This document shows, in pieces, positions 1 through 48,602 of a stretch of DNA of 64,000 nucleotides. Below the pieces are notes generated by a model. The model saw nothing but the letters and a program-made list of their open reading frames with translations. It did no database searches and was not told the DNA's origin. This DNA comes from Crambe crambe. Lineage: Eukaryota; Porifera; Demospongiae; Poecilosclerida; Crambeidae. The position numbers were made by a program, and so were the translations under genes. Location of the stretch: NCBI GenBank assembly GCA_963924555.1, contig OZ004593.1, positions 6,010,480 to 6,074,479 of the forward strand, given 5' to 3'. Numbering within the stretch: the stretch's first letter is position 1; each line of letters starts with the position of its first letter.

Positions 1-418
1 CTCTAACTACATTCATATTCAGAGAGTACATGTACATGTGGCTACTCACAGTTCATTTCTTTTTAAACTTTTTTGTGGTGACATACAGTACACACATCAC
101 ATCAAGCCCTAACTTCATACTACAGTCTATAGCAATAGTCACTATAACTACTAACTATAGTTAACATCTTAGGTTGGAGCACTAGGCTGAACTGAAGTGA
201 ACAGAAGTGAACACCGAGTGAACAATCTACCAGTTTAGTCAGCTAGCTCAGTCTGCGACAGTTTCTCAGTAGTGCTAGAATACTATAGGCTACTATCTGA
301 AGGCTCCAGAGAAATATTTCTACACAGATCCAGTCATCTAGTGAGTCCCAGCAAGATAATGTGCCTGTAGCCATGCATGTTCAATATGACATACTCTCTT
401 ATAGTTAACTACACGATC
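1..418 (+). promoter_or_regulatory. 5' flank and non-coding first exon of receptor locus L1
   Basis: This is the left-most copy of a leader of about 400 bp found before every class (a)/(b) gene that has the MDSFLLMF-type signal exon. It contains a probable non-coding exon that ends at a GTGAGT donor (341-346) and a short intron with an acceptor at 401-404. The start codon is at 419, so the 5' UTR is spliced. Similar leaders lie before 3239, 12477, 15284, 19978, 21368 and 27959. The true transcription start is not visible. Confidence 0.5.
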
Positions 419-1913
419 ATGGACTCTTTTCTGTTGATGTTTCATGTACTGCTAGCACTCACAGGAACATGCACTGGTAAGTGTTAGCCCAAGCATTATA
501 GCTAGTTAATGATAAACTTCATTATTATGCCAGGTGCCTTCTTCCCTCCTACTGCCTACACTCTGAATGGAGTGATGTCAGTGAATGGGTCAGATGCAAC
601 TGGAGGTTGTCCTCAGGCATGTGTGCAGACAATGTCAATCAATGCCTACTGTGACTGTACTGGGACAACTGGAGCAGAGACCATCACTGGAGTCATCATT
701 GATGGTGTGGTACCAACTCTAGACACAAGTCAGAGAGGGACCTGGACAACTCAACTGCTCACTGTGAGGGGCAATGCACAGAACATTAGAATAGGATTCC
801 GATTCCAGAATACAGTTATGCTACGTGAGGTGGAACTGTATCTGTACTATTGTCCTTTTTGGAACATTGGCGGATCTCCGATGGGAATGAACACTATCAA
901 TATATACAATATAATTCTATTCCCAACATTTATTGACTCCTTTGGAGATAGTGTTGGGAGTGTGACTCTAACCAGTGACATGGCTAACTGTGAGTCCCTC
1001 ACCAGGGTCTCAATTCCCTTATAAGGAGCCAGAAGCACACTCATTTACTTCATTGAATTCACAAATTCACAGCTGTTCATAGAGTGGCTCCACATTGCTG
1101 AGGTGAGATTCTCTGATGAACTCATTCCAACTCCTGGACCACTACCTGGTAAGATGAATGGAGTAACTAATAACTTATATCTCATTTCAGTGAACCATTC
1201 TCCACAGCACCTGGTATGAGTTCATCATCACTACAAGTTATAACTACCACCATCACCACTATTCTAACCCCTCAACCTACAGTTTCTCCTACACCCACTA
1301 ACAATATGCTTGATACCACCACATACAAAACCCTCACCTCCACCTCCCTCACTGACTCTACCATCACCATAGGTAACCAGTTGCCAGGTGCATTAATAGC
1401 TGCAGTGCTACATGACACAACATCTCTTCTTCTTTTTCCAAAGGTCATCATATACCCACTACTAGAAGTGAAGTGTGTCCTTCCTGTTCCAGCACTCCAG
1501 CCATTTCGTCAGCTGTCATTGCAGTCATTGTCACAGCTCTACTGGCCACAGTCATCTTTGTGGTGGTGCAGGTTGTCATTTGCAAGTGTCACCCAAAGTT
1601 CAGACCTGGAGAGACTGAGATGGGAGCCTCAGCAGGAGGAGAGGGGCAGGAGTATGAAGTGATAGATGGAGGTGTTGTAACTGAAGCAGGAATATCGGCA
1701 GGAGGGGAAGGGCAGGAGTATGAGCAGATGGATGGAGATGAAGGCGGTGCAACTGAGGCAGGTATTACAGCAAGAGGGGAGGGGCAGGAGTATGAGATGA
1801 TTGTGGGTGGATATGAGGGAGGTGTGGTTATGAGTGAACAAAGAGAGCAGTCGGGTAATCAAACCTTTGAACTTCAGCAAAATGAAGCATATGGTACTTA
1901 TTCATCATTATAA
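419..1913 (+). pseudogene. L1: kinase-less receptor with repeated-tyrosine tail, one premature stop
   Basis: Four exons can be traced. They are 419-476 (signal peptide), 534-1148 (ectodomain), 1191-1372 or 1208-1372 (Thr/Ser-rich stalk) and 1444-1913 (transmembrane segment and tail). All junctions are phase 1 and match intact L5. The ectodomain exon carries TAA at 1022-1024 where the other copies have CAA, a single C-to-T change, and this would truncate the protein before the membrane. Exon 3 also lacks 10 nt after its usual acceptor, but the next AG (1206-1207) restores the frame. The tail reads CPSC, a membrane segment [21 protein letters not shown], then YEVI, YEQM and YEMI in glycine/glutamate-rich repeats. 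Either the locus is a recently disabled gene or the stop is an allele or assembly error. Confidence 0.75.
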
Positions 1914-3238: not shown

Positions 3239-4522
3239 ATGGATTCTTTTCTGTTGATGTTTCATATACTGCTAGTACTCACAGGAACATGCACTGGTAA
3301 GTGTTACATCAAGCATAACAGCTAGCTAATGGATCAACTTCATTATATGCCAGGTGCCTTCTTTTATCCTACTGCCTACACTCTGAATGGAGTGATGTCA
3401 GTGAATGGGTCAGATCCAACTGGAGGTTGTCCTCAGGCATGTGTACTGACAGTATCAATCAACACCTATTGTGACTGTGCTGGGACAGCTGGAGCAGGGA
3501 CCTTCACTGGAGTCATCATTGATGGTGTGGTACCAACTCTAGACACAAGTCAGAGAGGAACCTGGGCAACTCAACTGCTCACCATTAGGGGGAATTCACA
3601 GACATTTAGAATAGGATTCCAATTCCAGAATGCAGTTATGCTACGTGAGGTGGAACTGTATCTGTTCTACTGTCCTTCTTGGAACATTAGCGGATCTCCA
3701 GTTGGAACAAACACTATCAACATATACAATGCATTACTATTCCCAACATTTGTTGACTCTTTTGGTGGTAGTACTGGGAATGTGAATCTAACCAGTGACA
3801 TGGCTAACTGTGAGAACCTCATTAGTATCTCCATCCCTATACAAGGAACCAGAAACATACGATTTTACTTCATTGAATTCACAAATTCACAGTGGTTCAT
3901 AGAGTGGCTCCACATTGCTGAGGTGAGATTCTCTGATGAATTCATTCCAACTCCTGGACCACTACCTGGTAAGATGAATGGAGTAATAGCTTATGATTAT
4001 TATGTAATATCTTACTTCAGTGACATCAGTGCAACCATCCTCCACAGCACCTGGCATGAGTTTATCATCACTACAAGTTATAACTACCACAAGAACTACC
4101 ACTGCAACCATGGTTAATAACCAGTTGCCAATGGGTGGTATAATAGGACTGGTGGCTGCAATCATCGTCCTTTTACTACTCTTACTGATAGGGGGTGTGG
4201 TCGTCTTCTTATGCTATACATACTCACTACTAGAAGATCTCAGCTTGAGTGTCTCCCTCACTCCTGCCATCTTGTCAGCTGTTATCACAGCCTTATCACA
4301 GCTCTACTGGCCACAGTCATCTTTGTGGTGGTGCAGGTTGTCATCTGCAAGTGTCACCCAAAGTTCAGACCTGGAGGGACTAAGATAGCAGGAGGGGAGG
4401 GGCAAGAGTATGAGCAGATGGATGGAGGTGCTACTGAGACGGGAATATTGGTAGGAGAGGAGGGGCAGGAGTATGAGATGGTGGTGGGCGGATATGAGGG
4501 AGATGTGCATGGCCATGAGTGA
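3239..4522 (+). pseudogene. L2: chimeric receptor, kinase-type membrane segment fused to class (b) tail out of frame
   Basis: Exons are 3239-3296, 3354-3968 and a third from 4021. The signal and ectodomain exons are open. Exon 3 starts with the usual VTSVQPS stalk and runs into the membrane segment of the kinase class ([21 protein letters not shown], then VVVFLCYT). At about 4222 it joins the class (b) tail exon. The tail there is read in the wrong frame and ends at 4388. Homologous tail codons ([24 protein letters not shown]) continue in another frame to 4522. A 1-nt loss near 4292 also separates the two parts. Read straight through, the three exons give about 346 aa with a novel 50-residue tail, so a product is possible. 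I favour a recombination-born pseudogene. Confidence 0.6.
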
Positions 4523-5189
4523 CGACCATGGAGCAACGTACATCAAAGTTGGAGAACAAAGAGTACAGTCGGGCAAACACACCTTTGAACTTCATCAAAA
4601 TGAAACATATGGTACATGGTCATCATGATGAGACAACACTTTCAGTATACATCGATATAATCGTGATAATAAACCAACTCCCCATTGCAACTTTAGGTAC
4701 ATTATTGTTGTTATTTGTTGCCATGATCCAGTGTTTACATATGTTCCATTGTAAACTTTCATTTCTTCATATAATCAGATATACAGTTACATACAGTTCC
4801 TGGTAATTGAAAACAACTCAAGCGATAAGTACGTAAACTGTGTACTTCATTAGTGATCCAATCACTTTACTAGTGTAGCACAGTAAAGTTCAGAATGTAG
4901 TGCCTTGAGTCTGTAATTATTGACAGATCATAACTAAGATTGAAGATAGATGATAGCCATCTTGTGTGCCAAAAGGAAGGAGAAGGAAGTATGGTAAGTT
5001 CTATTCAACCTTTACATAGCTAGAAGACTGGATAAAATTAAGATGAGATGATATTATATAGACTGCTGTTAATGTTGTATGTGTGTCTCTCATCTTGATG
5101 TCACTATGGTACACTGGCAGAGGTTAGTACAGTATTACTTCTGATCTACATACGAAGTATCATTATTCACCTGTTAATGACATACCTAG
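4523..5189 (+). other. Intergenic before L3, possible decayed signal exon
   Basis: The first 100 bases continue the class (b) tail homology of L2. After that I see no gene. A hydrophobic stretch starting at ATG 5049 and leading to a GTTAGT donor at 5123 could be the decayed L3 signal-peptide exon, but it has an in-frame TGA and the wrong phase. The L3 ectodomain acceptor is at 5188-5189. Confidence 0.35.
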
Positions 5190-7766
5190 GTGCCTTTATT
5201 CATCCCACTGCTTACACACTGACTAATGTGACATCAATGAATGGGTCAGCTGTGAATGGGAGTTGTCCTTGTGTGGGGAGTGATGTATGTAATTGCACAA
5301 ATACAGCATTGAATATAACTGGAGTCCTTATAGATGGTGTAGTGCCAACTATAGACATTCCTCAAAGGAGAACCACCTGGGCAAGACAACTGCTCGCTGT
5401 AAGAGCAGCAAAACAGGATTATGTTATTGGGTTCAGGTTTGGGAGCAGATTTATACTTTCTGAGGTGGAACTCTATGTATTTCACTGTCCATCATGGGAT
5501 ATTGGAGCTGACACTATCAACATATACAATGCACTGAAATTCCCCAATTTCATTAAGCAGTTCAACAGTGCTGGGAATGTGACTCTGACTAGCAACATGG
5601 AGAACTGTGAGTCCCTCACTAGGGTATCCATTCCCTTACAAACAACAGTAAATACATCAAATTACTTCATTGAATTCACAAATTCAAATGGAAATGTACT
5701 ACAACTTTATATTGGTGAAGTAAGATTCTCTGATCAACTGATCCCAAATCCAGAAGAAATAAACACAACTACCACATAAACCATGGAAACTACAGGTTTG
5801 AATTAGTAACACATAACAACTTTATTACAATGATATTGCCTATTACAGCTGCCTCATATACTTCCCCTCCACCACCAACAGTTACTATCACTCCAACCAT
5901 AGTCACTCAGATGCATAATAATTCTCTCACCTCTCAAGCCACTTTATCACCACAACAGTTTTCGATCCCTGCCATACCAAATGGACTACAGACCACAGTT
6001 ACCACAAATATGAATACAGCCATTAACACCACATCCATGTCAACAAATAAACCACCCTTCCCTACTGTCATAGTTGGGGCTGTAGTGGGTGGCATTTTGG
6101 GACTCCTACTCCTAACATGTTTTGTGGTCGCTATAGGATGCTTGATAAAACGGAAAAAGAAATTTCGAACTGAGGTAGAAGAACTCCAGAATATGGTACT
6201 GAATAGAGCTGATGTCAAAATGGATGAAATTGATTCTCCAGTGAATACAACCTCACATAATAACTATAGTGGTATAGATTCTTCAATTCCTGACACTAGG
6301 ATGCTAAATGATAGCACTGAAACAGGAATGAAACTTGAAGAGTCCAATAAAGAGGAACTTGGTCAAGATAGCAATGAAGTGAAGAACGAAATTGAAGATG
6401 AAGAACAAGTTCACACTTACTCGACCATTACATGTAAAGATATTGAAGAGGTTTCCATCACTGCTGCATCCATCACTGATGCCAATTCACTTCAAGAACA
6501 CAGTAAACCCGATAAAGAACCATTTCTGCATGAGAATGAGCTCTATGCATATGCAGTGGTGAATAAATTAGCCAAAACAGTGAAAGAGAAGGGGACGTAT
6601 ACATTGGAAGGTTTGAGCAACCAAAGATGGAGATAGCAGAGATCATGGGAACTCTACCAATGAAAAGCTCACAGTGACTGCTCCACAGGCGAGTGGTGAA
6701 GAGCAAGAGGACGACTATGATACTATCTACAGTGAACCTATAGAGCCCTCCCTTTTCACTAATTTGGTGAAGGAAAGTAACAATGCTGCCACTGATGAGG
6801 CAATGGAGAGTGAAAGTGAAGTATGCTTCCATATACAACATGCCCGCCATTTCAGTGTCTAATTCTGTGAAGTTGCTGGAAATCAAACCTGAAAATATTC
6901 AAAAGATAAAAACACTGGGTACTGGGAATTTTGGTAAAGTGATTTTGGCTAATACAGTGGGTTTGAGCATGAAAGATTTGAAGATGAGTGACACGGATGA
7001 TGATAAGACAAAATCGATTCGTATGGTTGTAAAGCAGTTGAAGAAAAGTGCATTCACTTCAGGAAGAGAAGCTTTTGATAAAGAGTTGAAGTTCACCTCA
7101 CGTTTAAACCACCCGAACGTTATCCGAATTTTGGGGGCGTGCACTCTAGATGATCCTTTCATCATGATAGAATATATGGAGAAGGGAGACCTCAACGAGT
7201 ACCTGCTGAACTTTGACACCATCTCACCTGGGAATGGCTCCCCTGATGGTTTCACTATTAGCACAGGCACACTGACCAACATGTCAGCACAGATTGCCGC
7301 AGCTATGGCATATCTCTCCTCTCACAACTTTATCCATTGTGATCTTGCCACTCGTAACTGCCTTGTTGGGTCGAACCTTCAGATCGTAGTGGCAGATTTT
7401 GGACTGAGTCAAAGCCTCTACGAATCTCATTACTATGTGATCAAAGGTTACGCTGTCCTACCAGTCCGCTGGATGGCAAGGGAATGCTTTTATGGTACAT
7501 TTTCAGCAAAAACAGATGTCTGGGCATTTGGGGTGACCATGTGGGAAATCTTTACGCTGGCAAAGGACATTCCTTACGAAGACATGGATGAGAAATAAAT
7601 CGTTGTCGATGCCACAAAGAAGGATGGAAACAGGAAACTCCTGGAACAGCCAAAGAACTGTCCACAGGAAGCGTATGAAGTAATGCTAAAATGTTGGTCA
7701 AGTGATCCGAAACTTCGAGCAACTTTCAAAGAATTACACACTGCATTATCATCATTGGCACTCTAG
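5190..7766 (+). pseudogene. L3: decayed DDR-like receptor tyrosine kinase
   Basis: The ectodomain exon (from 5190) and a long membrane/kinase exon (from about 5848) are recognisable. The ectodomain has diverged most within the array. Lesions are TAA at 5777-5779 before the donor, a frameshift with TAG at 6634-6636, a second frameshift near 6825, and TAA at 7596-7598 within the kinase C-lobe (GAA in the relatives). The catalytic loop reads HCDLATRN (7335-7358) instead of HRDLATRN. The loop Cys would impair catalysis even without the stops. The glycine loop GTGNFGKV, the DFG and the LPVRWMARE motif remain. Four independent lesions make this a confident pseudogene. It is closest to L4, which follows it. 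Confidence 0.85.
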
Positions 7767-8377: not shown

Positions 8378-11300
8378 ATGGAGAAAGTGTTGCTTTTCTG
8401 TTGGGTTCTAACAGCATTGTGTTGGAGAAGTAGTGGTGAGTACTTATAATCAGCTGGCTGTATATTCCCAATAATTATTGGTTATTATTGTACAGGCACT
8501 TTCTTCCCTCCTATTGCCTACACTCTGAATGGAGTGATGTCTGTGAATGGGTCAGATGCAACTGGAGGATGTCCTCATGCATGTGTACAGATAATGTCAA
8601 CCAACACCTATTGTGACTGTGCTGGGACAGCTGGAGCAGGGACCTTCACTGGAGTCATCATTGATGGTGTGGTACCAACTCTAGACACAAGTCAGAGAGG
8701 GACCTGGGCAACTCAACTGTTCACTGTGAGGGGCAATACACGGAACATTAGAATAGGATTCCAATTCCAGAATGCAGTTGTGCTGCGTGAGGTGGAACTG
8801 TATTTGTTCTACTGTCCTTCTTGGAACATTGGTGGATCTCCAGTTGGAACAACCACTATCAACATATACAATGCATTAGTATTCCCAACATTCATCGACT
8901 CTTTTGGTGGTAGTGTTGGGAGTGTGACTCTAACCAATGACATGGCTAACTGTGAGTCCCTCACCAGGGTCTCAATTCCCTTACAAGGAGCCAGAAGCAC
9001 ACTCTTTTACTTCATTGAATTCACAAATTCACAGCACTCCATGGAGTGGACCCACATTGCTGGAGTAAGATTCTCCGATGAGATTATAATTGTTATCCCA
9101 TCTCCTTCACCTTCTCCACAAAACATAATGGGAGCTTCTTCTGGTTCTACTTGTGAGCTCTTACATAATCATTACCCCCAATCATGTAATATTATTATGT
9201 AACTTATGCTATTTTAGCTGCTACATCAAGTTTATCTCAATTTCAAGATCATACGGCTCAAATAACAGTTCAGAGTACTACTACACAAATCACATCAACA
9301 TCTTTTACTCTAATGATCAGTAAGTAGATGACAACATCACAAGTTTCGTTTGATCCCACACCCACTTCAATAAACACACCCAAAGCCACAACCCCTGAAA
9401 TGGTGGTCATTGAGATTACAAATGATCCAATGAACTTGTCTCAAACTCCGATGGATTATGAAACCACTCCACCTCCAATAACAACCATCAAAAGTATGTC
9501 CCAAAGCAATGAAACCACTCCCTCTCCAATAAAAACCATAGAAAATACATCCCAAATCTATAAAACTACTCCCTCTCCAACAGCGACCATAGAGAGTACG
9601 TACCAAAGCTATGAAACTACTCCCTCTGCAACAATAACCATCGAAAGTACATTCCAAATGCATGATGTCACAGTGATTCCACAAATGTTACATATCAATG
9701 CCACACCTAGAGCTACTGTGATAAATGAACAAAGCACAATGCAAGAACAGATTACAACTGATTTCATGCTCACTCCAACAACAGCCATGTTAGTTAATCC
9801 TGAAATAACCTCTTCGATAAAAACTTTAATATCACCACAATCATTGCTGCACATAATACAAGTTTCAAAATCAGCATCCACTGAACTACCAACCATTGCT
9901 GCAGTACATACAGACACTACGACAAATGCTGGTTCAACAGGACCAAACCAGACTCCTCCCTCTTTTCCAGCACACATAGTCGGAGCATTGGTGGGGATAA
10001 TCATGGGCTTGCTTCTCATCCTTATTGCAGGTTGCATGGTTGCTATCTGCTGCATTGCGCGACAAAAGAAAAGCAATCAAATAGTTATTGTTGAGCAACT
10101 ATATGATGTAGCAATAGAAAAGACAGAGAATGAAGCATCACAACTCAATGCTAACTCAAATTCTCCATATCATACTGACAATATTTATTCCTCCATTCCC
10201 GAGATTTTGCAGCTCAGTGGTAGTTTCAAATCAGAATCAAAATTGGACGAACCAAATCCATTATTATCTGTCCCAAGAGAAACAAATATGGATCATCTCC
10301 ATTTTTCAGATGGAAAAGAAAGCCATGATTTTTTTCTCAGACAAAACTCTGGACAATGGCTGAATAGTCGACAAGGAGGAGGAGGTAGCAAAATGGAGAC
10401 GAGAAGTGACAAAGATGAACACTATGATAAAATATGCGACTGGAAGCAAGTCTTATTGAAGATACCTCTAAACCCACTTTACGATCAGTCCTCCATCATG
10501 GGAGAGACACAAGATGACCCTGATTACTACACCACAATGCAGAACATCATCCCTGATATTCAAGTAACATCCATTGATGACACTGAGGTCATTGAAGAGT
10601 ACGACAATACTAATAAGGAAGTGTCACAACCAGAGGAAACATTTTACTCAGAGGTAGAAATATTCAAAGATAACGCAACAAAAGAACTATCACTGAGTGC
10701 TCCAGGCAATGGAGATCCTATTTGTAATCCACCTGATGCGAAATTGATTGTGACCAATCAACAAGAGGATGAGGATGTGATCTACACTATGCCTGAAGAC
10801 AGTGATTGTGAAGACAGCATGGTGAGTGGTGATCATGCCATATGCTGCAGTGAGCCCATACAACCGTCACTCTTCACAAATCCTGTTCCACCTGCACCCA
10901 CCACTTGCCCAATAGGTGTCGATACCGATAAAAAGGAAGGACCTATTGGCAAGGAATCGATATATGCTCCTGTGTATACAGAACCCTCGTCATTGGGTAT
11001 CAATTCTCAAAAGATTCCTGAACTCACAGTTGAGAACTTTCACAAGATAAAGACTCTGGGTACTGGTAATTTTGGTAAAGTTCTTTTAGCGAATACAGTA
11101 GGTCTAAGCCCAAAGGATCTGAATATGAGTGATACAGATGACAATAAAACCAAAACTATGCGTGTTGCTGTGAAACAGTTGAAGCAAAATGCATTGCCTT
11201 CAGCGAAAGAAGCTTTCAATAAAGAACTGAGATTTATGTCGCGTTTGAATCACCCAAATGTCATCCGTGTGTTGGGGGCATGCATGAAAGAAGACTCACC

Positions 11301-11910
11301 TTTCATCATGATGGAATGGATGAAAAAAGGAGATCTAAACGAATACCTGTTGAATTTTGACACCATCCTGTCAGGGGATAGTCCTCCTGGTGACTTTGAT
11401 ATAAGCACAAGCACACTGACCAACATGTCAGCACAAATTGCCGCAGCTATGGCATATCTCTCCTCTCATAACTTCGTCCATCGTGATCTTGCCACTCGTA
11501 ACTGTCTTGTTGGATCAAACCTTCAGATCAAAGTGGCAGACTTTGGAATGAGTCGAAGCCTCTACGAATCTCATTACTACGTGATCAAAGGTCATGCTGT
11601 CTTGCCAGTCCGATGGATGGCAAGAGAGTGCTTTTATGGAAAGTTCTCAACCAAAACAGACGTTTGGGCATTTGGGGTGACTATGTGGGAGATCTTTACG
11701 CTGGCAAAAGATATTCCATATGAAGACATGGATGATAAAGAAATCGCTGCTGATATCACCAAGAAAAATGGCAGCCGCAAGCTCCTTGAAAAGCCTAAGA
11801 GTTGTCCTCAAGGGATGTACGAGATCATGCTCAAGTGTTGGGCGAATGATCCTGCAAGGAGAGCAACTTTCGAGGAATTACACAACATGTTATCATCATT
11901 AACACTCTAG
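8378..11910 (+). CDS. L4: DDR-like receptor tyrosine kinase with long mucin-like stalk
   Basis: The model is exons 8378-8435, 8496-9143 and 9344-11910, giving 1090 aa. Exon 1 encodes a signal peptide (MEKVLLFCWVLTALCW) unlike the MDSFLLMF type of its neighbours. Residues 20-235 are the ectodomain, followed by about 200 residues of Thr/Ser/Pro stalk. The membrane segment is near 446-470 (VGALVGIIMGLLLILIAG). A cytoplasmic region of about 330 residues carries many tyrosines. The kinase spans about 800-1085: GTGNFGKV, VAVKQL, HRDLATRN, DFGMSRS, YESHYY, LPVRWMARE. MSRLNHPNVIR, HRDLATRNCLVG and the CPQGMYE stretch are typical of discoidin domain receptors. The acceptor for exon 3 is uncertain: an earlier AG (9216-9217) would put TAG 9325-9327 in frame, whereas the AG at 9342-9343, with CTAATGA upstream, keeps the frame open. 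Confidence 0.8.
9450..9665 (+). repeat. About 60-nt tandem repeat coding the L4 stalk
   Basis: Four imperfect units of about 20 residues read ETTPPPITTI, ETTPSPIKTI, KTTPSPTATI and ETTPSATITI, each followed by a short Ser/Gln stretch. They lie in the predicted O-glycosylated stalk between the ectodomain and the membrane. The unit differs from the 30-nt repeat in L11 and L14. Confidence 0.7.
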
Positions 11911-12476: not shown

Positions 12477-13991
12477 ATGGATTCTTTTCTGTTGATGTTT
12501 CATGTACTGCTAGGACTCACAGGAACATGCACTGGTAAGTGTTACATCAAGCATAATAGCTATAGCTAATGGATTAACTTCATTATTATACCAGGTGCCT
12601 TCTTCCCTCCTACTGCCTACACTCTGAATGGAGTGATGTCAGTGAATGGGTCGGATGCAACTGGAGGTTGTCCTCAGGCATGTGTACAGACAATGTCAAC
12701 CAACACCTACTGTGACTGTGCTGGGACAGCTGGAGCAGGGACCTTCACTGGAGTCATCATTGATGGTGTGGTACCAACTCTAGACACTAGTCAGAGAGGA
12801 ACGTGGGCAACTCAACTGCTCACTGTGAGGGACAATACACAGAGAGTTAGAATAGGATTCCAATTCCAGAATGCAGTTGTGCTACGTGAGGTGGAACTGT
12901 ATCTGTTCTACTGTCTTTCTTGGAACATTGGTGGATCTCCAGTTGGAACAAACACTATCAACATATACAATGCAATACTATTCCCAACATTCGTCAACTC
13001 CTTTGGTGGTAGTGTTGGGAGTGTGACTCTAACCAGTAACATGATTAACTGTGAGTCCCTCATTAGGGTCTCAATTCCCTTACAAGGAGCCAGAAGCACA
13101 CTTAGATGTTTCATAGAATTCACAAATTCACAGCGGTTCATAGAGTGGCTCCACATTGCTGAGGTGAGATTCTCTGATGAACTCATTCCAACTCCTGGAC
13201 TACTACCTGGTAAGATGAATGGAGTTAATAGTCTCATTTCAGTAACATCAGTGCAGCCTTCCACAGGACCTGGCATGAGTTCATCATCGCTACAAGTTAT
13301 AACTACCACCATCACTACTACTCTAACCCCTCAACCTACAGTTTCTCCTACACCCACTAACAATATGCTTGACACCACCACCCTCACAACGATCACCTCC
13401 CCCATCATCACTACCACTTCCCTCACTGACTCTACCATCACCATAGGTAACCAGTTGCCAGGTGCATTAATAGGAGTGTTTAGCTGCAGTGCTGTATGAC
13501 ACGACATCTTTTCTTTTTCCTTAGGTCATATACCCACTACTAGAAGTGAAGTGTGTCCTTCCTGTTCCAGCACTCCTGCCATTTTGTCAGCTGTCATTAC
13601 AGCCTTCATCACAGCTCTACTGGCCACAGTCATCTTTGTGGTGGTGCAGGTTGTCATCTGCAAGTGCCATTCAAAGTTCAGACCTGGGGGGACTAAGATG
13701 GGAGCCTCAGCAGGAGGAGAGGGGCAGGAGTATGAAGTGATAGATGGAGGTGTTGTAACTGAAACAGGAATATTGGCAGGAGGGGAAGAGCAGGATTATG
13801 AGCAGATGGATGGAGATGAAGGCGGTGCAACTGAGGCAGGTATTACAGCAAGAGGGGAGGGGCAGGAGTATGAGATGATTGTGGGTAGACATGAGGGAGG
13901 TGTGGTTATGAGTGAAGAAAGAGAGCAGTTGGGTAATCAAACCTTTGAACTTCAGAAAAATGAAGCATATGGTACTTATTCATCATCATAA
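12477..13991 (+). CDS. L5: kinase-less receptor with repeated-tyrosine tail, intact
   Basis: Exons 12477-12534, 12595-13209, 13243-13446 and 13525-13991 join in phase 1 throughout and give 447 aa without a stop. Residues 1-19 are the signal peptide and 20-224 the ectodomain, including the YCDC and WNIGGSPVGTNTINIYNA motifs. Residues 225-292 form a Thr/Ser/Pro stalk. Exon 4 adds CPSCSST, a membrane segment at about 311-333 ([16 protein letters not shown]) and CKCHSKFRPGG. A tail of about 110 residues has three units of GGEGQEYE type containing YEVI, YEQM and YEMI and ends AYGTYSSS. YEQM fits the YxxM consensus for the PI3-kinase p85 SH2 domain, and YEVI and YEMI fit general SH2 sites. There is no catalytic domain. 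The ectodomain is nearly identical to those of the kinase genes on either side. Retaining intron 3 would give a truncated product ending at 13499. Confidence 0.85.
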
Positions 13992-32588: not shown

Positions 32589-34378
32589 ATGGATGGTGTT
32601 CTGCTGATCACTGTTCTATCACTTCTAGTACTCATGGACACATGTAATTGTAAGTGAATTTTCTTAGATAAACTTTCAAATTTACTCTCTCAAATGACCA
32701 GGTGCCCTCTTCCCTCCTACTGCCTACACTCTGAGAGGAGTGATGTCAGTGAATGGGTCAGATGCAACTGGAGGTTGTCCTCAGGCATGTGTACGGTCTA
32801 ACTCAATGGATACTTATTGTGACTGTGCTGGGACAGCTGGAGCAGGGACCTTCAATGGAAGCATCATTGATGGTGTGGTACCAACTCTAGACACAAGTCA
32901 GAGAGGGACCTGGGCAACTCAACTGCTCACTGTGAGGGGCAATACACAGGACATTAGAATAGGATTTCGATTCCAGAATACAGTTATGCTACGTGAGGTG
33001 GAACTGTATCTGTTCTACTGTCCTTCTTGGAACATTGGTGCATCTCCAGTTGGAACAACCACTGTCAACATTTACAATGCATTTCTATTTCCATTATTCA
33101 TTGACTCCTTTGGAGGTAGTGCAGGGAGTGTGACCCTAACCAGTGACATGGCTGCCTGTGAGTCCCTCACCAGAGTCTCCATTCCCTTGCTAGGAGCTAG
33201 AAGCACACTTATTTACTTCATTGAAATTACAAATTCACAGCAGTCCATAGAGTGGCTCCACATTGCTGAGGTGAGATTCTCTGATGAATTCATTCCAACT
33301 CCTGGACCATTACCTGGTAAGATGAATGGAGTAGTTAATAGATTAGCTATAATATTAATATCTCATTTCAGTGACATCAGTGCAACCATCCTCCACAGTG
33401 CCTGGTACGAGTTCATCAGTACAAGTTATAACTAGCAGAAAAACTACCACCATCACCACTACTCTAACCCCTCAACCTACAGTTTCTCCTACACCCACTG
33501 ACAGTATGCTTGACACCATCACCTTCACATCCTCCTTCACATCCTCCATCACTACCACCTCCCTCACCATCACCACTTCCACCCTCGCCACCCCCACCAT
33601 CACCACCTCCACCCTCACCACCTCCATCACCGCCTCCACCCTCACCGCCCCCACCATCACCGCCTCCACCCTCACCACCCCCACCATCACCGCCTCCACC
33701 CTCACCACCCCCACCATCACAGCCTCCACCCTCACCACCCTTACCATCATTGCCTCCACCCTCACCACCCCCACCATCACTACCATCACCACCTCCACCC
33801 TCACCACCTCCACCATCACCACTACCTCCACCCTCATCACCTCCACCATGGGTAGCCAGTTACCTATAATCGGAGGACTGGGAGGTGCTGTGGTTGCCCT
33901 TTTCATACTCCTCCTGATTGGGTGCATAGTGTGTTTTGTGCAAAACAAGAGAAAGAATAATCGTGAAGTCAGACTTCGAAGTGGTCCAATGCGTGAGAAC
34001 AATACAATACCAAAAGAACCAAAGTTAGAATCATCCACCATGATAACACTACAAAATGTGAACTATGAAAAAGTGCTAGAATTCAGCATGAAACAGTCGG
34101 TAGCATATTCATCAGCTCCAAAGCTTCAGGTATTGCATGGAGATGAAACTATCTATTCCAACAGTGACAGAGATGGGGGAAAGAGGCATGCTCTTATTAT
34201 CAGTGAAACCAGATATGATTTTTACGATGATATTATTAACCAAGAAGAAAGCAACATTTACTCAACTATCTCTGAGGTCAAGAGGGAAAATGCATACGAA
34301 TTTGAAGATTCCTATAGTATGACCGAGAAAAGAGTTTCACAAAATATATACTCAGAAATTGAGTTGCTAAAAGATTAA
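32589..34378 (+). CDS. L11: class (c) kinase-less receptor with mucin-like repeat stalk
   Basis: Exons 32589-32649, 32702-33316 and 33372-34378 give 560 aa in phase 1. The signal peptide is MDGVLLITVLSLLVLMDTC, distinct from the MDSFLLMF type. The ectodomain (residues 21-225) is of the common kind. A stalk of about 160 residues is almost all Thr, Ser, Pro, Ile and Leu, with a ten-residue repeat. The membrane segment is about 389-414 (IIGGLGGAVVALFILLLIGC). The tail of about 145 residues has no kinase but has many tyrosines: IYSNS, YDFYDDII, IYSTI, YEFEDSYSM and IYSEI. These resemble the docking sites ahead of the kinase in L6 to L10, so the tail could recruit SH2 proteins if phosphorylated in trans. 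This is inference. Confidence 0.88.
33555..33850 (+). repeat. 30-bp coding minisatellite in the L11 stalk
   Basis: Units of about 30 nt (ten residues such as TASTLTTPTI) are repeated roughly nine times, with several 33620-33780 units almost identical. The repeat keeps the reading frame open in all three + strand frames, giving a proline/serine pattern in another frame. L14 has a longer array and L15 almost none. Confidence 0.85.
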
Positions 34379-36887: not shown

Positions 36888-39800
36888 ATGGATGGTGTTC
36901 TACTGATCACTGTTCTTCTATCACTCCTAGTACTTGTGGGCACATGTAATTGTAAGTGAATCTTCTTACATGTATACCTTTCAAATTTACTCTTATCTCA
37001 AATGACCAGGTGCCTTCTTCCCTCCTACTGCCTACACTCTGAATGGAGTGATGTCAGTGAATGGGTCGGATGCAACTGGAGGTTGTCCTCAGGCATGTGT
37101 ACAGACAATGTCAACCAGCACCTACTGTGACTGTACTGGGACAGCTACACTAGGGACCTTCACTGGAGTCATCATTGATGGTGTGGTACCAACTCTAGAC
37201 ACAAGTCAGAGAGGGACCTGGGCAACTCAACTGTTCATAGTGAGGGGCAATGCACAGAACATTAGAATAGGATTCAGATTCCAGAATACAGTTATGCTGT
37301 GTGAAGTGGGGTATTGTTGGCTCTTCAGGTGGAACTAACACTATCAACATATACACTTCATTAGTATTCCCACAATTCGTTGACTCCTTTGGTGGTAGCG
37401 TGGGGAGTGTGACTCTAACCAGCGACATGGCTAACTGTGAGTCTCACCAGGGTCTCCATTCCCTTACAAGGAGCCAGAAGCACACTCATTTACTTTATTG
37501 AATTCACAAATTCACAGAGGTTCATAGAATGGATCCACATTGCTGAGGTGAGATTCTCTGATGAACTCATTCCAACTCCTGGATCACTACCTGGTAAGAT
37601 GAATGGAGTAACTAATACCTTATATTATTAATATCTCATTTCAGTGACATCAGTACAACCATCCTCCACAGTGCCCGGTACGAGTTCATTGTCACTGCAA
37701 GTTATAACTAGCACAAAGACTACCACCATCACCACTATTCTAACCCCTCTACTTACAGCTTCTCCTACACCCACTAACAGAATGCTTGACATCCTTGCTG
37801 ACTCTACCACCACCATGTTGCCAACCATTGATAACCAGTTGGGTGCCATTATAGGAGGACTGGTGGCAGCAATTTTCGTCCTCTTAATACTCTTGCTGAT
37901 TGGGGGTGTAGTCATCTTCTTATGCTATACACAAAACAAGAGAAAAAGTTATCATACAGAAGTGGAACAACTTCAAGGTGCAGTGTATAAAGGAAACCAA
38001 ACAGACTCGGCTGAACTCAGCACAAAGTTGGAGCCTATCATGATAACCACACACGCTCACCATTACGAAAAAATCGAACTCGAAATAAAGACGAGAAGTC
38101 AGTCGTCACCTTCACACCTAGCTCGTCCCAACGTGCCTGATGGCAATAAAGTCACTTATTCCAAGCCAAAACAGAATAGGATGAATGGTCAACCACAGTT
38201 CATCGGTGAAAATGGTTACAGTGATATTGATATTCACGACAACGAAGCAAAACTGGAATCTATTTCTACCAAAGATGGGGAGATGGATGCCGAATATTTC
38301 ACCATCGGTGAGACCAAGAAGGAGAAAGAAACTGGTGAATCGGGGGAAAGGGGGAAAGAATCGGACTCCTCATCCAGCTCTCCGAGACTAGGAAAAAGAA
38401 GTTGTACAGAAGCAAGAAGCACCACGTGTCCCAAAGAAAGTGCCTGAACTGTGCGGAGACCCGAAAGCAGATGAAGATTACTATAGTGAGGTAGACTATA
38501 CATTGAAGGAGAGCATAAGGATAGGGAAGGAGGGAAAGAGTGCAATTCTTGAATCTGCCAAGTCTGATGCAGCACAGGAAGAGTCTCAGTATTACTCTGT
38601 TGTGAGTGATGCCAACAAGAAAAAAGTTTCCGAAATATTTATCGGAGAATGCAGTGAAACAGAAAGAGAAGGAACAGAAGAAGAAATTTACTCCGAGATA
38701 AGAGAAAAATCAGCACCCAATACAAGTGGTCCACAAATATTACGCAATCCAGTCTTTGAAAACATGGATGCCAATCCTAATTACAAGTCATCTACGGTCA
38801 TATTGTCGGGGGTACAAGATGGTGATGAAATCTATACCAATCCTGATGCTGAGAATAATAAGCAGGGATCTACGATACTGTTTACAATGAACCACTATCA
38901 CCTTCCATGTTCAATAAATACGAAGAGTTGGCAGAAACACTTTCCACTAATACTGATCACAAAGAGAAAGAACCAGAACCAAAAAATGAAGACATGGATG
39001 AAGAACTCGTATGTGCTCCGATATACTCAGTCTCACCTCTGGAAAATGATTCCAGCAAAAAATTGCTTGAAGTCAAGTCGGAAAACCTTCACAAGATCAA
39101 AACTCTCGGTACGGGAAATTTTGGCAAAGTCATCTTGGCAAATACAGTGGATTTGAGTCCCAAGGATTTGAAGATGAGTGATACTGATGATGACAAGACA
39201 AAATCGACTCGCGTTGCTGTGAAACAGTTGAAGTTAAGTGTATCATCTTCAATAAAAGAAGCATTTGACAAAGAACTGAAATTCATGTCTCGTCTTAATC
39301 ACCCAAACGTCATCCGTGTGTTAGGGGCATGTACCCAAGACACTGACACCCCTTTCATCGTGATGGAGTATATGAAGAAAGGAGATCTCCACGAATACCT
39401 CTTGAACTTTGAAACTGTTTCACAGGGGAGCAATCCACCTACTGACCTCACCATAAGCATGGGCACACTGACAAGTATGTCATCACAAATCGCCAGTGCT
39501 ATGAAATACCTCGCCTCTCGAAACTTCATCCATCGTGATCTCGCCATTCGCAACTGCCTGGTTGGGTCTGATCTACAGATCAAGATAGCCGACTTCGGAC
39601 TGAGTCAAAGCCTCTATGAATCTCATTACTATGTGATCAAAGGTCATGCTGTCCTACCAGTCCGATGGATGGCAAGAGAGTGCTTTTATGGTAAATTTTC
39701 AGCAAAAACAGATGTCTGGGCATTTGGGGTGACCATGTGGGAGATTTTTACACTGGCAACAGACATCCCTTATGAAGAAATGGATGATAAAGAAGTTATT

Positions 39801-39980
39801 GAAGATGCTACCAAGAATGACGGAAGTCGAAAACTGTTGCGAAAGCCAAAAGATTGCCCTCAGGGAGTTTATGATGTGATGCTTCAGTGTTGGAAAGAAA
39901 ACCCAAAAGAGCGAGCAACTTTTGAAAAACTGTACAATTCCCTGTCATTGTTGACCGTGAATGTTGAGGAAACTTCATAG
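36888..39980 (+). pseudogene. L12: broken kinase receptor with class (c) front end
   Basis: The signal exon 36888-36951 (MDGVLLITVLLSLLVLVGTCN) and leader are of class (c), while exon 3 (from 37645) is of the kinase class: GAIIGGLVAAIFVLLILLL, juxtamembrane sites, kinase. Lesions are an internal deletion in exon 2 near 37312-37340 with loss of the LYLFYCPSW stretch, a 2-nt loss near 37443, an 8-nt loss near 38398 (LYSVV region) and a replaced block at about 38851-38875. The last 357 codons (38907-39980) are open and keep GTGNFGKV, VAVKQL, HRDLAIRN, DFGLSQS and LPVRWMARE, so decay is recent or the kinase part is still expressed from an internal start. I consider it a pseudogene. Confidence 0.8.
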
Positions 39981-40076
39981 ATAAGTTAGTATCGTAATTA
40001 TTCTGTTAGTGAATGGGTTTGTTGCTGTTGCACATTATAACAAACTACATTATTTTGTTGTTTTTTATATTGTAAC

Positions 40077-41720
40077 CTCCCTCACTGATCCTACCATCAC
40101 TATGGGTGGCCAGTTGCCAACCATGGGTAACAACAGTACCATGGCTAATAACTGGTTGCTAATGGGTCCAGGAGGTATAATAGGAGGACTGGTGGCTGCA
40201 ATTGTCATCCTTTTACTTCTCTTGCTGATAGGGGGTGTGGTCATCTTTTTATGCTATACACACACAAAACAATAAAAAAAGTTATCGTACAGAAGTGGAG
40301 CAACTTCACGACGGAAACAGCTCAGACTCGGCAGAACTCAGCACAAAGTTGGAGCCTACCAAGATAACCACAAACAATCGCCATTACGAAAAAACTGAAC
40401 TCAAAATGAAGATGAGAAGTCAGTCATCACCTTCAGCTCGTCCCAATGTGCCTGATGGCAATAAAGTCACTTATTCCAAGCCAAACAAGAACAGGATGAA
40501 CGGTCAACCACAGTTCATCGGTGAAAATGGTTACAGTGATATTGATATTCATGACGATGAAGCAAAACTGCAATCTATTTCCACCAAAGATGGGGGGGTG
40601 GATGCCGAATATTTCACAATTGGTGAGACCAAGAAGGAGAAAGAAACTGGTGAATTGGAGGGGAGGGGGAAAGAATCGGACTCCTCATTGAGACTAGAAA
40701 CAAGATTGTATTCAGTCGTACAGAAGCAAGAAGCACCACGTGTCCCAAAGAAAACGCCTGAACTGTACAGAGACCTGAAAGCAGAGGTGGATGGCAATGA
40801 GGAGTACTATAGTGAGGTGGATGATACGTTGAAGGAGAGCATAAGGATAGGGAAAGAGGGAAAGAGTGCAATTCCTGAATCCACCAAGTCCAGTGCAGCA
40901 CAGGAAGAGTCTCAGTATTACTCTGTTGTAAGTGATACCAAAGAGAAAAAAGTTCCCGAAATATTCATTGGAGAATACAGTGAAATGGAAAGAGAAGAAA
41001 CAGAAGAAGACATTTACTCGGAGATAAGAGAAAAATCAGCACCCAATACAGGTGGTCCACAAATATTACGCAATCCAGTCTTTGAAAACATGGATGCCAA
41101 TCCTAATTACGAGTCATCTACGGTCATGCTGTCAGGGGTGCAAAATGGTGGTGAGATCTATACCAATCCTGATGCTGATATGCAAGTGAGGTCGGAAGAT
41201 AGCTTGAACATCTACGATACTGTTTACGATGAACCACTATCAAAGATTTGGCTGAAACACGTGATTACAAGGAGAAGGAACCAGAATCCAAAGATGAAGA
41301 CTCTGAAGACATGGATGAAGAACTAGTGTATGCTCCAATATACTCAGTCTCACCTCTGGAAAATGATTCCAGCAAAAAATTGTTGGAGGTCAAGTCGGAA
41401 AACCTTCATAAGATTAAAACTCTTGGTACGGGAAATTTCGGCAAAGTCATCTTGGCGAATACAGTGGATTTGAGTCCCGAAGATTTGAAGATGAGTGATA
41501 CTGATGATGACAAGACAAAATCGACTCTCGTTGCTCTGTAACAGTTGAAGTTAAATGTATCATCTTCAATAAAAGAAGCATTCGACAAAGAACTGAAATT
41601 CATGTCTCGCCTTAATCACCCAAACGTCATCCGCGTGTTGGGGGCATGTACCCAGCAACTTTTGAAAAACTACACAATTCCCTGTCATTTTTGACTGAGA
41701 ATGTTGAGGAAACTTCATAG
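40077..41720 (+). pseudogene. L13: 5'-truncated kinase receptor fragment
   Basis: It begins abruptly within the stalk codons (TSLTDPTIT), about 100 bases after the end of L12, and has no signal or ectodomain exon. The membrane segment is followed by a 2-nt insertion near 40260, a deletion near 41241, and TAA at 41539-41541 that replaces the ATP-binding lysine codon of VAVK. A large deletion at about 41654 joins ACTQ directly to the last kinase helix (near FEKLHN) and removes the catalytic and activation loops. The closing codons VEETS and the stop at 41718-41720 remain. Confidence 0.9.
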
Positions 41721-43134: not shown

Positions 43135-44966
43135 ATGAATGGTGTTCTGCTGATCACTGTTGTCCTATCACTTCTAGTATTCATGGACACCTATAATTGT
43201 AAGTGAATCTACTCATAATTAATTAGATAACCTTACTCTCTCAAATGACCAGGTGCCTTCTTCCCTCCTACTGCCTACACTCTGAATGGAGTGATGTCTG
43301 TGAATGGGTCAGATGCAACTGGAGGTTGTCCTCACACATGTGTACAGTCTAACTCTTATTGTGACTGTGCTGGGACATTTGGAGCAGAGACCTTCACTGG
43401 AGTCATCATTGATGGTGTGGTACCAACTCTAGACACAAGTCAGAGAGGGACCTGGGCAACTCAACTACTCACTGTGAGGGGCAATACACAAAACATTAGA
43501 ATAGGATTCGAATTCCAGAATACAGTTATGCTATGTGAGGTGGAACTGTATCTGTTCTACTGTCCTTCTTGGAACATTGGTGGATCTCCAGTTGGAACAA
43601 ACACTATCAACATATACAATGCATTAGTATTCCCAACATTCGTCAACTCCTTTGGTGGTAGTGCAGGGAGTGTGACTTTAACCAGTAACATGATTAACTG
43701 CGAGTCCCTCATTAGGGTCTCAATTCCCTTACAAAGAGCCAGAAGCACACTCATTTACTTCGTTGAATTCACAAATTCACAGCAGTTCATACAATGGATC
43801 CACATTGTTGAGGTGAGATTCTCTGATGAACTCATTTCAATTCCTGGACCACTACCTGGTAAGATGAATGGAGTACGTAGCTAACTAATAGCTTATGTTA
43901 TTAATATCTCATTTCAGTGACATCAGTGCAACCACCTGGTACGAGTTCATCAGTACAAGTTACAAAAACTCCTCAACCTACAGTTTCTCCTACATCCACT
44001 AACAATATGCTTGACACCACCACCTTCATATCCACTACCAGCTCCTTCATCATCACCACTTCCACCCTCACTACCCCCATCATCACTACCTCCTCCCTCA
44101 CCACCCCCACCATCACCTCCACCCTCACCACCCCCACCATCACTACCTCCACCCCCACCACCTCTACCATCACTACCTCCACCCCCACCATCCCCAACAT
44201 CACCACCTCCACCCTCACCACCTCCACCCTCACCACCCCCACCATCACTACCTCCACCCTCATCACCTCCACCCTCACCACCCCCACCATCACTACCTCC
44301 ACCCTCACCACCTCTACCATCGCCACCTCCACCATCACCATCCCCACCATCACCGTCCCCATCATCACTACCATCATCACCTCCACCATCACCACCTCCA
44401 CCATCACTACCTCCACCCTCACTACCTCCACCATCACCACCCCCACCATCACTGCCTCCACCCTCACCAGCCCCACCATCACTACCTCCACCCTCACCAC
44501 CTCCACTATGGGTACCCAGTTACCTATAATCGGAGGATTGGGAGGTGCTGTGGTCGTCCTTTTCATACTCCTCCTGATTGGATGTGTAATTGGATATCGA
44601 AGTGGTGCAATGCGCAAGAACAATACAATACCAAAAGAACCGAAGTTAGAATCGTCCACCATGATAACACTGCAAAATGTGAACAACGAAGAAGCACTAG
44701 AAAGCAGCATGAAGCAGTCGGTAGCACACTCATCAGTCCCAAAGCTTCAGGTATTGCATGGTGATGAAACTATCTGTTCCAACAGGCATGCTCTTGTTAC
44801 CAGTGAAACCAGATATGATTTTTACGATGAAATTATTAACCAAGAAGAAGGCAACATTTACTCAGCTATCTCCGAGATCAAGAGGGAAGATGAATACGAA
44901 TTTGAAGATTCCTGTAATATGACCGAGAAAAGAGATATATACTCAGAAATTGAGTTGCTAAAGTAA
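43135..44966 (+). CDS. L14: class (c) kinase-less receptor with long mucin-like stalk
   Basis: Exons 43135-43198, 43253-43858 and 43918-44966 give 572 aa in phase 1. The signal peptide is MNGVLLITVVLSLLVFMDTY. The ectodomain (22-223) shares a long identical stretch with L15. The stalk of about 180 residues is built from ten-residue units such as TPTITTSTLT. The membrane segment is about 425-448 (IIGGLGGAVVVLFILLLIGC), but the FVQNKRK anchor seen in L11 is missing and the tail starts GYRSGAMRKNN. The tail of about 120 residues keeps YDFYDEII, IYSAI, YEFEDS and IYSEI, and has lost a few codons relative to L11. It has no kinase. Confidence 0.88.
44035..44508 (+). repeat. 30-bp coding minisatellite in the L14 stalk
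   Basis: About fifteen units of roughly 30 nt coding Thr/Ser/Pro/Ile/Leu decapeptides, longer than the array in L11. Some units carry variant ends (TPTIPN, TIPTITVPI). Other frames read as PPPSPPPPS and, on the opposite strand, valine/glutamate repeats; those frames are shadows. Confidence 0.85.
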
Positions 44967-46361: not shown

Positions 46362-46369
46362 TATTGCTT

Positions 46370-46402
<33 letters not shown>

Positions 46403-46451: not shown

Positions 46452-47127
46452 TCAGAGAATGCACTAAAGTGGTTCATGTTTTTCTTGTCCCATGTAGCTA
46501 GTCATAGCTAAAAATAGAGATTGCTCATGATAGCTACAAGCATTTTCATTTATATCTGAGCCTCAGTATATCGTCTTGGGAAAAATAACCATAGCAGTAT
46601 ATCTATGTAACTATAAAATTACTATTAACATCAATCATCCATCCATCAAATAGGGCTGATGTTGTCCACTAGCTATTCCACATCCCAAAACACTTAACTA
46701 GTTAATATGACAACCATGAGGTCAACTATCATAATAACTTAATAGATCATCTTCTTCCAAGCAACTGTTGACTATCAAGTTGAGGGATAGGGTAGCTAGC
46801 TATGATAGCATTATTAATTATTACCACTATATAAGTTATTATAACTAGATCTTATCTGCTGGCCTGGAATGAACACTCATCTATCATAGCAGTACTTTAA
46901 TAACAAGATTCAGTGAGTCAAAGTTAGCAAGCAGATTCATTGAAAATATAACTATTTAGCTACATCCACTTGAGCATTTGAACTTTGTTTTAGCTATAAG
47001 TATGAATGATGGTTTTTAGCTACGTATAAGGGTCTTTTCCATACCAAAGTGAAAGCTAAATAGACTTTACCTTGCAATAAAATAATTATTTCTTTTATTT
47101 CTTCCCTGCAGTTAGCCTATTAGTATA
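46452..47127 (+). promoter_or_regulatory. L15 leader
   Basis: The block that precedes class (c) genes, very close to 36150-36887, with donor GTGAGT near 46914 and acceptor TTCCCTGCAG ending near 47111. No gene is seen. Confidence 0.5.
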
Positions 47128-48602
47128 ATGGATGGTGTTCTGCTGATCACTGTTGTTCTATCACTTCTAGTACTCATGGACATGTGTAATTGTAAGTGAA
47201 TCTTCAATTTACTCTTATCTCAAATGACCAGGTGCCTTCTTCTCTCCTACTGCCTACGCTCTGAATGGAGTGATGTCAGTGAATGGGTCAGATGCAACTG
47301 GAGGTTGTCCTCAGGCATGTATAGAGACAATATCAACCAACACCAACTGTGACTGTGCTATCAATGGAGTCATCATTGATGGTGTGGTACCAACTCTAGA
47401 CACAAGTCAGAGAGGGACCTGGGCAACTCAACTACTCACTGTGAGGGGCAATACACAAAACATTAGAATAGGATTCGAATTCCAGAATACAGTTATGCTA
47501 TGTGAGGTGGAACTGTATCTGTTCTACTGTCCTTCTTGGAACATTGGTAGATCTCCAGTTGGAACAAACACTATCAACATATACAATGCATTAACATTCC
47601 CAATATTTATCAACTCCTTTGGAGGTAGTGTGGGGAGTGTGGCTCTAACCAGTGACATGGCTAACTGTGAGTCCCTCACCAGAGTCTCCATTCCCTTACT
47701 ACTAGCAAGAAGAACACTCTTTTATTTTATTGAATTCACTAATTCACAGCGGTTCATACGTAGAGTGGCTCCACATTGCTGAGGTGAGATTCTCTGATGA
47801 ACTCATTCCAACTCCTGGATCACTACCTGGTAAGATGAATGGAGTAACTAATACCTTATATTATTAATATCACATTTCAGTGACATCAGTGCAACCATCC
47901 TCCACAGTGCCTGGTACGAGTTCATCATCAGTACAAGTTATAACTAGCATAAGAACTACCACCATCACCACTACTCTAATCCCTCAACCTACAGTGTCTC
48001 CTACACCCACTAACAGCATGCTTGATACCACCCCCCACATCACTACCACCTCCTTCACCACCACTTCCACCACCTCCACCATGGGTAGCCAGTTACCTAT
48101 AATCGGAGGATTGGGGGGTGCTGTGGTTGTCCTTTTCATACTCCTCCTGATTGGATGTGTAGTGTGTTTCGTGCAAAACAAGAGAAGGAATAATCATGAT
48201 GTTGGACTTCAAAGTGGTGCAATGTGCGAGAACAAAATAAGACCAAAAGAACTGGAGTTAGAATCGTCCACCATGATAACACTGCAAAATGTGAACTATG
48301 AAGAAGCACTAGAAATCAGCATGAAACAGTCAGTAGCATACTCATCAGTCCCAAAGCTTCAGGTATTACATGGCGATGACACTATCTGTTCCAACAGTGA
48401 CAGAGATGAGGAAAAGAGGCATGCTCTTGTCATCAGTGAAACCGAATATGATTTTTACGATGATATTATTAACCAAGAAGAAAACAACATTTACTCAGAG
48501 GTCAAGAGTGAAAATGCATACGAATTTGAAGATTCCTATAATATGACCGAGAAAAGAATTTCGCAAAATATATACTCAGAAATTGAGTTGCTAAAAGATT
48601 AA
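47128..48602 (+). pseudogene. L15: class (c) receptor with a 4-nt insertion in the ectodomain exon
   Basis: Exons 47128-47191, 47232-47829 and 47881-48602 have good splice sites. The signal peptide is MDGVLLITVVLSLLVLMDMC. An extra CGTA at about 47759-47762, not present in any other copy, shifts the frame and stops translation at 47780-47782, before the membrane segment. Exon 3 is open: a short stalk with only two or three repeat units, membrane segment IIGGLGGAVVVLFILLLIGC, and a tail with YDFYDDII, IYSEV, YEFEDSY and IYSEI. A single lesion suggests a very recent loss, a null allele or an assembly error. The truncated product would be a secreted ectodomain. Confidence 0.7.

Follow-up and report, generated by a model that had tools for sequence, protein, structure and literature searches.

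What kind of receptor system is encoded in the 64,000-nucleotide stretch of the Crambe crambe genome analysed here (C16:6010480-6074479, where C16 is contig OZ004593.1; hereafter the window), and what could be gained by joining similar ectodomains to different signalling tails? A sequence-only reading of positions 1-48602 had proposed a tandem array of at least 15 receptor loci and remnants, about half of them broken, in which one ectodomain is coupled to three alternative outputs. We counted 15 in this part of the window, namely 12 long ectodomain copies, two ectodomain fragments and one remnant of a kinase gene of the type called a1 below, and eight of the 15 were broken or remnants, in agreement with the proposal. 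The array was real and larger than had been noted: the window covers only the distal end of about 0.65 Mb (C16:5.42-6.07 Mb), with about 0.6 Mb of the array lying further upstream, in a genome of 143.1 Mb and 119 contigs. As far as sequence comparison can tell, the comparisons described below showed a multi-tail array with exchange of ectodomains, and the best-supported reading, which we regard as probable, is that it works like paired or multi-output recognition receptors kept by that exchange.

Two genome-wide searches with the ectodomain gave at least 151 and at least 150 matches; the totals are lower bounds because each search scored 150 of 177 first-look candidates, and several genes match the query in pieces. 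The matches clustered at C16:5.43-6.07 Mb, C21:0.88-0.95 Mb, C12:1.25-1.29 Mb, C16:2.94-3.00 Mb and C13:2.88-2.90 Mb. For 84 of the ectodomain matches listed in C16:5.38-6.07 Mb, the next downstream partner was a b tail in 42 cases, a kinase in 19 and a c tail in three, and none was found in 20. Chance is excluded as the source of the repeated ectodomains, because profile E-values reach down to 1e-113 for non-self copies.

Typically, a gene opens with a signal exon whose end is in phase 1. The ectodomain exon that follows (exon 2) is in phase 1-1 and measures about 615 nt, and a short intron, of 33 nt in locus 12591, separates it from the stalk, the transmembrane segment and the tail. The last three lie in a single exon in types a1 and c; type b has a separate transmembrane and tail exon. 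All exons were predicted from splice-site sequence and not from transcripts. We refer to loci by the window position at which the long ectodomain copy begins (530, 3350, 5189, 8495, 12591, 15395, 21476, 28085, 32698, 37006, 43249 and 47228). The types of signal exon cut across the tails: MDSF/MDAF was found in b and a1 genes and MDGV/MNGV in the c genes and one broken a1 gene, and MEKV is shared by one b gene (upstream 7506) with the two a3 genes. The ectodomains of the main subfamily were 79-87% identical to that of locus 12591 and the ectodomain of locus 5189 only 56-61%; the idea of one single ectodomain was therefore not upheld.

Alternative tails were likewise found as proposed, their number being six rather than three (a1, a2, a3, b, c and d). 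Types a1, a2 and a3 have in common a DDR-like kinase and are unlike in the stalk, transmembrane and juxtamembrane regions. In a search against PDB sequences only, the best 11 matches of the kinase were all DDR1 or DDR2 (E 1.5e-72 to 7.3e-68), followed by an EGFR entry (2.7e-60). Of 11 kinase loci in the window and the adjoining 30 kb upstream, nine had complete G-loop, lysine, HRD and DFG motifs; one of these nine is truncated where the stretch ends. Tail b is joined to ectodomains of the main, the second and a distant subfamily. Tail c has no kinase and shows 37-39% identity to the a1 juxtamembrane region, to which it is related, and no kinase remnant was detected after the class c stops at E 1e-4; all three c tails contain an ITAM-like (immunoreceptor tyrosine-based activation motif) pattern, YD[DE]I-x8-YS.[IV] (shuffle p 0.025-0.043 each, the copies being related and not independent). 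Of 26 matches to tail d, 25 lay on contig 12, where the attached ectodomains mostly had 80-87% identity to the ectodomain of locus 12591. We also asked whether d could be a version of tail b and rejected this, the one weak match on C16 (E 1.7e-4) having stops.

Motifs of the YxxPhi type were more frequent than in shuffled sequences in 14 of 19 tails (p<0.05); the two a3 tails and the three c tails did not reach this level (p 0.07-0.13). The YxxM motif that had been read as the mark of the short tail is present in tail b, as one among several YxxPhi motifs and not as the sole one. In activating members of Ig-type receptors (KIR, Siglec and Alr), a charged residue in the transmembrane segment serves an adaptor. 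The b transmembrane segments, inspected by eye, were without D, E, K or R and do not have such a residue. Two further observations concern the tails. In C16:5787204-5870420 a run of ectodomain exons lies in frames that are about 490-560 codons long, and for nearly all of them no known tail was found downstream; perhaps a further tail type is to be sought there. A stray b tail, split into two parts with 80% and 84% identity, lies at C9:6963916-6964296, with no ectodomain match beside it among the matches listed.

The central question was whether ectodomains and tails had been inherited together. The kinase tree followed the tail classes, requiring the minimum of three changes (support 65/92 for a1, 100/99 for a2 and 100/100 for a3), and the exon 2 tree of 26 copies needed 12 changes versus six. 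In all eight a1-a3 locus pairs the proportion of synonymous differences (pS) was 0.17-0.22 in the ectodomain and 0.61-0.66 in the kinase, which supports homogenisation of the ectodomains across kinase classes that are themselves old. Over 190 pairs of main-subfamily ectodomains, pS was 0.144 for the same tail (n=37) and 0.171 for different tails (n=153). Sawyer's statistic, computed on 225 gapless polymorphic sites, exceeded the mean of 500 permutations of the sites by 10.7 standard deviations, and none of the permutations was as high; clustering of highly variable sites may inflate it. The test, the two trees and the contrast in pS bear out the proposed gene conversion between loci, and the a1-a3 comparisons, the pS values within and between tails and the closely similar ectodomains on a, b, c and d tails bear out the shared ectodomain with alternative tails.

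The boundaries of the homology point the same way. The 5' flanks of b and a3 genes, signal exon included, were 94-96% identical over 250 bp, and those of b and a1 genes 82% over 1.64 kb. In two b-a3 comparisons the homology began in the 5' flank and stopped about 30 nt short of the end of exon 2, close to where the stalks come to differ, and between a C16 b gene and a contig 12 d gene it was confined to exon 2 (605 bp, 91%); in one b/a1 and one c/a1 comparison it continued into the stalk (eight locus comparisons were made). These patterns showed, at the level of sequence, that exchange or conversion between loci of different tail class has involved the phase 1-1 ectodomain exon, in several cases together with the 5' flank and the signal exon. 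Tails have been exchanged as well, as judged from the b transmembrane core, which had a pS of 0.215 between arrays whose ectodomains had a pS of 0.651. In the b genes 530, 12591 and upstream 7506, the stalk frame keeps a stretch resembling the start of the a1 transmembrane segment ahead of the b exon; we infer that these stretches, together with the hybrid locus 3350, are scars of tail replacement.

By sequence, the ectodomain had no usable match in Pfam or in PDB (sequence and profile searches), and of the bacterial and archaeal genomes only six stretches fitted the ectodomain pattern, none of which was confirmed. The fold predicted from an alignment of 37 family members is a beta sandwich of moderate confidence (mean predicted local distance difference test score, pLDDT, 74.7; predicted template modelling score, pTM, 0.77), with residues 20-30 and 44-54 at pLDDT below 50. 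A fold search of PDB placed human DDR1 at ranks 1 and 2, the top entry being the isolated discoidin (DS)-like domain (E 3.5e-6, template modelling score 0.55/0.63), with 14-15% identity and a root-mean-square deviation of 6.1. Next came carbohydrate-binding modules CBM32 (ranks 3, 5 and 9), APC10/DOC, Eph ligand-binding and SUN domains. The ectodomain is best described as a diverged discoidin-like (DS-like) fold, for which the predicted class of fold is better secured than a particular relationship to DDR1, because identity is 14-15% and the deviation about 6. The kinase, judged among PDB sequences, points independently to DDR1/DDR2, as the fold does. An immunoglobulin (Ig) fold was not present in the ectodomain, either by Pfam on the members or by the predicted-fold search. 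The array resembles DDR1 and DDR2 in the best kinase match by sequence and the best ectodomain match by fold. The DDR ectodomain consists of two domains, DS and DS-like, whereas the genes of the array have one DS-like ectodomain exon followed by a short stalk, no match to the F5/8 type C profile, and kinase-less relatives in tandem.

We next considered how the b and kinase genes are arranged. In the second subfamily they alternate, with ectodomains 1.6-2.0 kb apart. In two b+a2 pairs, a quartet comparison gave 42 informative sites uniting the members of a pair, none uniting the tail classes and four doing neither. For six pairs, the identity profiles to two query ectodomains fitted partner to partner as well as any pairing, only four of 720 pairings being as low, the true one included; in this set one pair's second gene was without a kinase match, two of the 12 ectodomain matches were partial and two of the 12 genes were the queries themselves. 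The gene order and the six-pair comparison support the neighbouring b+kinase pair as a recurring unit, and these comparisons showed that its members have a common ectodomain lineage; co-expression is only suggested, by the 5' flanks that b genes have in common with kinase genes.

Similar ectodomains on different tails, homogenised across tail classes, are the genomic hallmarks of paired receptors, of which the mammalian immune ones are the most familiar, and the array has them. Several results nevertheless weigh against the paired-receptor reading. With tail labels shuffled on the exon 2 tree, a mean of 16.6 changes was needed versus the 12 found, meaning that tails, mainly d and a3, are more clustered than random. 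Rejection of b as one exon 2 clade by the approximately unbiased (AU) test is partly due to b spanning two subfamilies, and for class c ectodomains as one clade the rejection was borderline (p 0.054). In the larger pair lineage the partners were not closer to each other than to other members (84-88% to one query, its own partner 87%), and exchange there would therefore predate the last duplications or span pairs. Inhibitory motifs (ITIM) were not above shuffles in the 19 tails except in one a1 tail (p 0.038) and are not a general feature. The ratio of nonsynonymous to synonymous change (dN/dS) along exon 2, a check named with the original proposal, which would count purifying selection there against itself, averaged 0.57 over the 190 main-subfamily pairs and was 0.39-0.59 in ten second-subfamily pairs, a result partly against a recognition role; two 21-codon windows exceeded one (1.66 and 1.21), where there are few synonymous differences. 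Because of this average, positive selection on exon 2 was not shown: the exon is under purifying to relaxed constraint, with no overall positive selection, and its variability was not concentrated in the predicted loops (p 0.34).

An alternative is that tandem duplication, unequal crossing-over and conversion mixed the parts without any paired function while most loci decay. This neutral concerted evolution would account for the eight of 15 broken or remnant loci, for the relaxed nonsynonymous-to-synonymous ratio (pN/pS) of exon 2 with its homogenised middle, and for exchange in ectodomain and b tail alike. However, the kinase domains are strongly constrained, with a pN/pS of 0.12 in a1 (six pairs; juxtamembrane 0.33, stalk and transmembrane 0.60) and a dN/dS of 0.09 in the one a2 pair (0.64 from stalk to juxtamembrane); the catalytic motifs are complete in most kinase loci, YxxPhi motifs exceed shuffles in most tails, and the three c tails are constrained (pN/pS 0.46 over transmembrane segment and tail). 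For the b tail, dN/dS was 0.29-0.48 in nine of ten pairs and 1.10 in one. Altogether, we consider a purely neutral origin rather unlikely.

A DDR1-like kinase with a DS-like fold could also belong to an expanded DDR branch sensing collagen or other matrix, with the kinase-less members as decoys. Such a ligand would give no call for at least 150 ectodomain matches exchanging between tails, and Pfam did not detect F5/8 type C in any of the 37 members; we hold this to be improbable. A somewhat less doubtful possibility, still an unlikely one, is that the same paired architecture serves to sense microbial or food glycans, with no role in self/non-self recognition. The CBM32 modules in the fold list would fit it, as would the individual-specific expression of immune receptors in one sponge (PMC8242945; here and below, citations stand for excerpts of the papers and not for their full text), but the fold is common to many non-glycan binders, APC10, Eph and SUN in the same list among them. 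Its odds overlap with those of the paired-receptor reading, because it is a sub-case of it.

How does the array compare with known systems? KIR and Hydractinia Alr genes form tandem arrays with alternative tails and pseudogenes, have Ig-type folds and contain no receptor kinase. The present array is like them in tandem layout, alternative tails and pseudogenes, and unlike them in its non-Ig fold and its receptor kinase. In primate Siglec-11/16 and CD300A/C, conversion keeps ectodomains similar across opposite tails and members are lost, and relaxed constraint is reported for the converted Siglec-11/16 exons (PMC5701461, PMC12447643); the purifying-to-relaxed constraint on exon 2 is in line with the latter. 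Those systems are two-gene systems with Ig or Ig-like ectodomains and no receptor kinase, as excerpted, whereas the array has a predicted discoidin-like fold, kinase members and six tails. Eph receptors, for which expansions in sponges are described (PMC6485061), are also receptor tyrosine kinases with an ectodomain of galactose-binding, discoidin-like fold. Their domains rank below DDR1 in the fold list, and no cysteine-rich/fibronectin layout was seen in the array, for which no separate search was made. The excerpts differ on the age of DDR: orthologues are stated for sponges and ctenophores (PMC6485061), DDR was identified only in human and fly among the species of one survey (PMC5395295), and emergence of the kinase family is placed in Bilateria (PMC8662651). 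Expanded or immune-linked receptor kinases are known from sponges, as in the receptor-kinase-rich transcriptome of H. panicea and the Geodia cydonium receptor tyrosine kinase, whose ectodomain is Ig-like; a multi-tail array is not described for them in the excerpts (PMC12018476, PMC8242945). Because of the missing Ig fold, F5/8 type C profile and two-domain layout, we set the array apart from both KIR/Siglec/Alr receptors and DDRs. No account of such an array was found in open-licence PMC papers, an earlier description, for example in supplements, being possible.

The individual loci of the window, all on the forward strand, are as follows; open or broken status is our reading of the frames, and some breaks could be assembly errors. 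Seven of the 15 have open predicted frames. Locus 12591 (12477-13991, tail b) has predicted exons 12477-12534, 12595-13209, 13243-13446 and 13525-13991, summed by hand to 447 codons. Three are a1 kinase genes: 15395 (15284-18522; exons 15284-15341, 15399-16007 and 16052-18522; kinase loop HRDLAICN), 21476 (21368-24533; exons 21368-21425, 21480-22073 and 22126-24533) and 28085 (27959-31092; exons 27959-28016, 28089-28697 and 28754-31092). Locus 8495 (8378-11910) is an a3 kinase gene with an MEKV-type signal exon (8378-8435), an ectodomain from 8496 and a frame for stalk, transmembrane segment, tail and kinase (9328-11910), the splice between exons 2 and 3 not being settled. Tail c without kinase is carried by 32698 (32589-34378; exons 32589-32649, 32702-33316 and 33372-34378) and 43249 (43135-44966; exons 43135-43198, 43253-43858 and 43918-44966), with a repetitive stalk in the former and a long repetitive one in the latter; Thr-rich stalks of two class c genes contain 15-nt tandem repeats of very different length, 20 copies at 33556-33849 and 31 at 44051-44506.

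The broken loci are 530 (419-1913, tail b; the signal exon spans 419-476, an in-frame TAA interrupts the ectodomain beginning at 530, and the stalk is followed by a transmembrane and tail b frame at 1416-1913), the hybrid 3350 (3239-4522), in which a signal exon and an open ectodomain exon are followed by an a1-like transmembrane segment and then out-of-frame b-tail sequence, 5189 (5189-7763), an a2 kinase on the second-subfamily ectodomain with a frame break, a stop and HRD changed to HCD, 37006 (36888-39980), an a1 kinase gene with an exon 2 of 584 nt and an MDGV-type signal exon, otherwise a tail c feature, and 47228 (47128-48602), whose tail c frame is open and whose exon 2 is frameshifted (598 nt). 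Ectodomain fragments lie at 20093-20215 and, broken, at 26174-26635, and the a1-type remnant (40075-41655) has stalk/juxtamembrane sequence and the N-terminal part of the kinase, with no ectodomain found. Beyond 48602 there are two distant b-type loci with a b-related transmembrane segment and tail, one with a partial ectodomain-like frame (54294-55682) and one whose ectodomain exon is 31% identical to that of 12591 (57685-58917). Directly downstream of the latter, open frames at 59762-60202, 60203-60898 and 60886-61464 had no Pfam match; the last ends in a transmembrane-like stretch and may be another membrane protein. An exon on the reverse strand (51530-51958) with a tRNA ligase anticodon-binding domain (PF08264) belongs to an unrelated gene past the array.

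The genome also contains at least 135 matches to SH2 exons, 35 of them on contig 5. There, C5:1468041-1522148 holds a dense SH2 array of 27 exon matches in 54 kb, with at least seven couples 188-215 bp apart, which we conjecture to be co-expanded phosphotyrosine readers of the receptor tails. Weak matches to the p85 inter-SH2 region lie near SH2 exons at C12:1644646-1646071 and C12:1808915-1811833, with further SH2 exons at C12:1.75-1.84 Mb; a contig 12 match of 31.3 bits (31.7 with neighbours) has two internal stops and lies about 1 kb from an SH2 exon.

On the paired-receptor reading, a DDR-like receptor lineage would have grown into a tandem family through birth and death of copies, while a single diverged discoidin-like ectodomain stayed common to receptors whose signalling tails are different and older. 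Members seeing the same class of ligand, a conspecific or microbial surface, would be co-expressed; kinase members would phosphorylate themselves and their kinase-less partners, and SH2 proteins would read the YxxPhi tails, the response being set by which outputs are engaged. More tentatively, we propose that an early-branching animal has here a paired-receptor system that is not of Ig type, includes kinases and serves self/non-self or microbial recognition, with interchangeable discoidin-like ectodomains, at least six outputs, trans-phosphorylation in mixed clusters and co-expanded SH2 readers, a possibility rather than an expectation. The receptors for such recognition in early-branching animals are largely unknown, and the array offers concrete candidates. 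They come with a predicted fold, a pair logic (b beside kinase) and a genomic mechanism, exon 2 exchange, like that of mammalian paired receptors on another fold. If the proposal is true, paired-receptor logic would have evolved independently in a form where the receptor itself carries the kinase, and the array would be a kinase-based counterpart, derived from a DDR-like ancestor, of the mammalian paired-receptor complexes.

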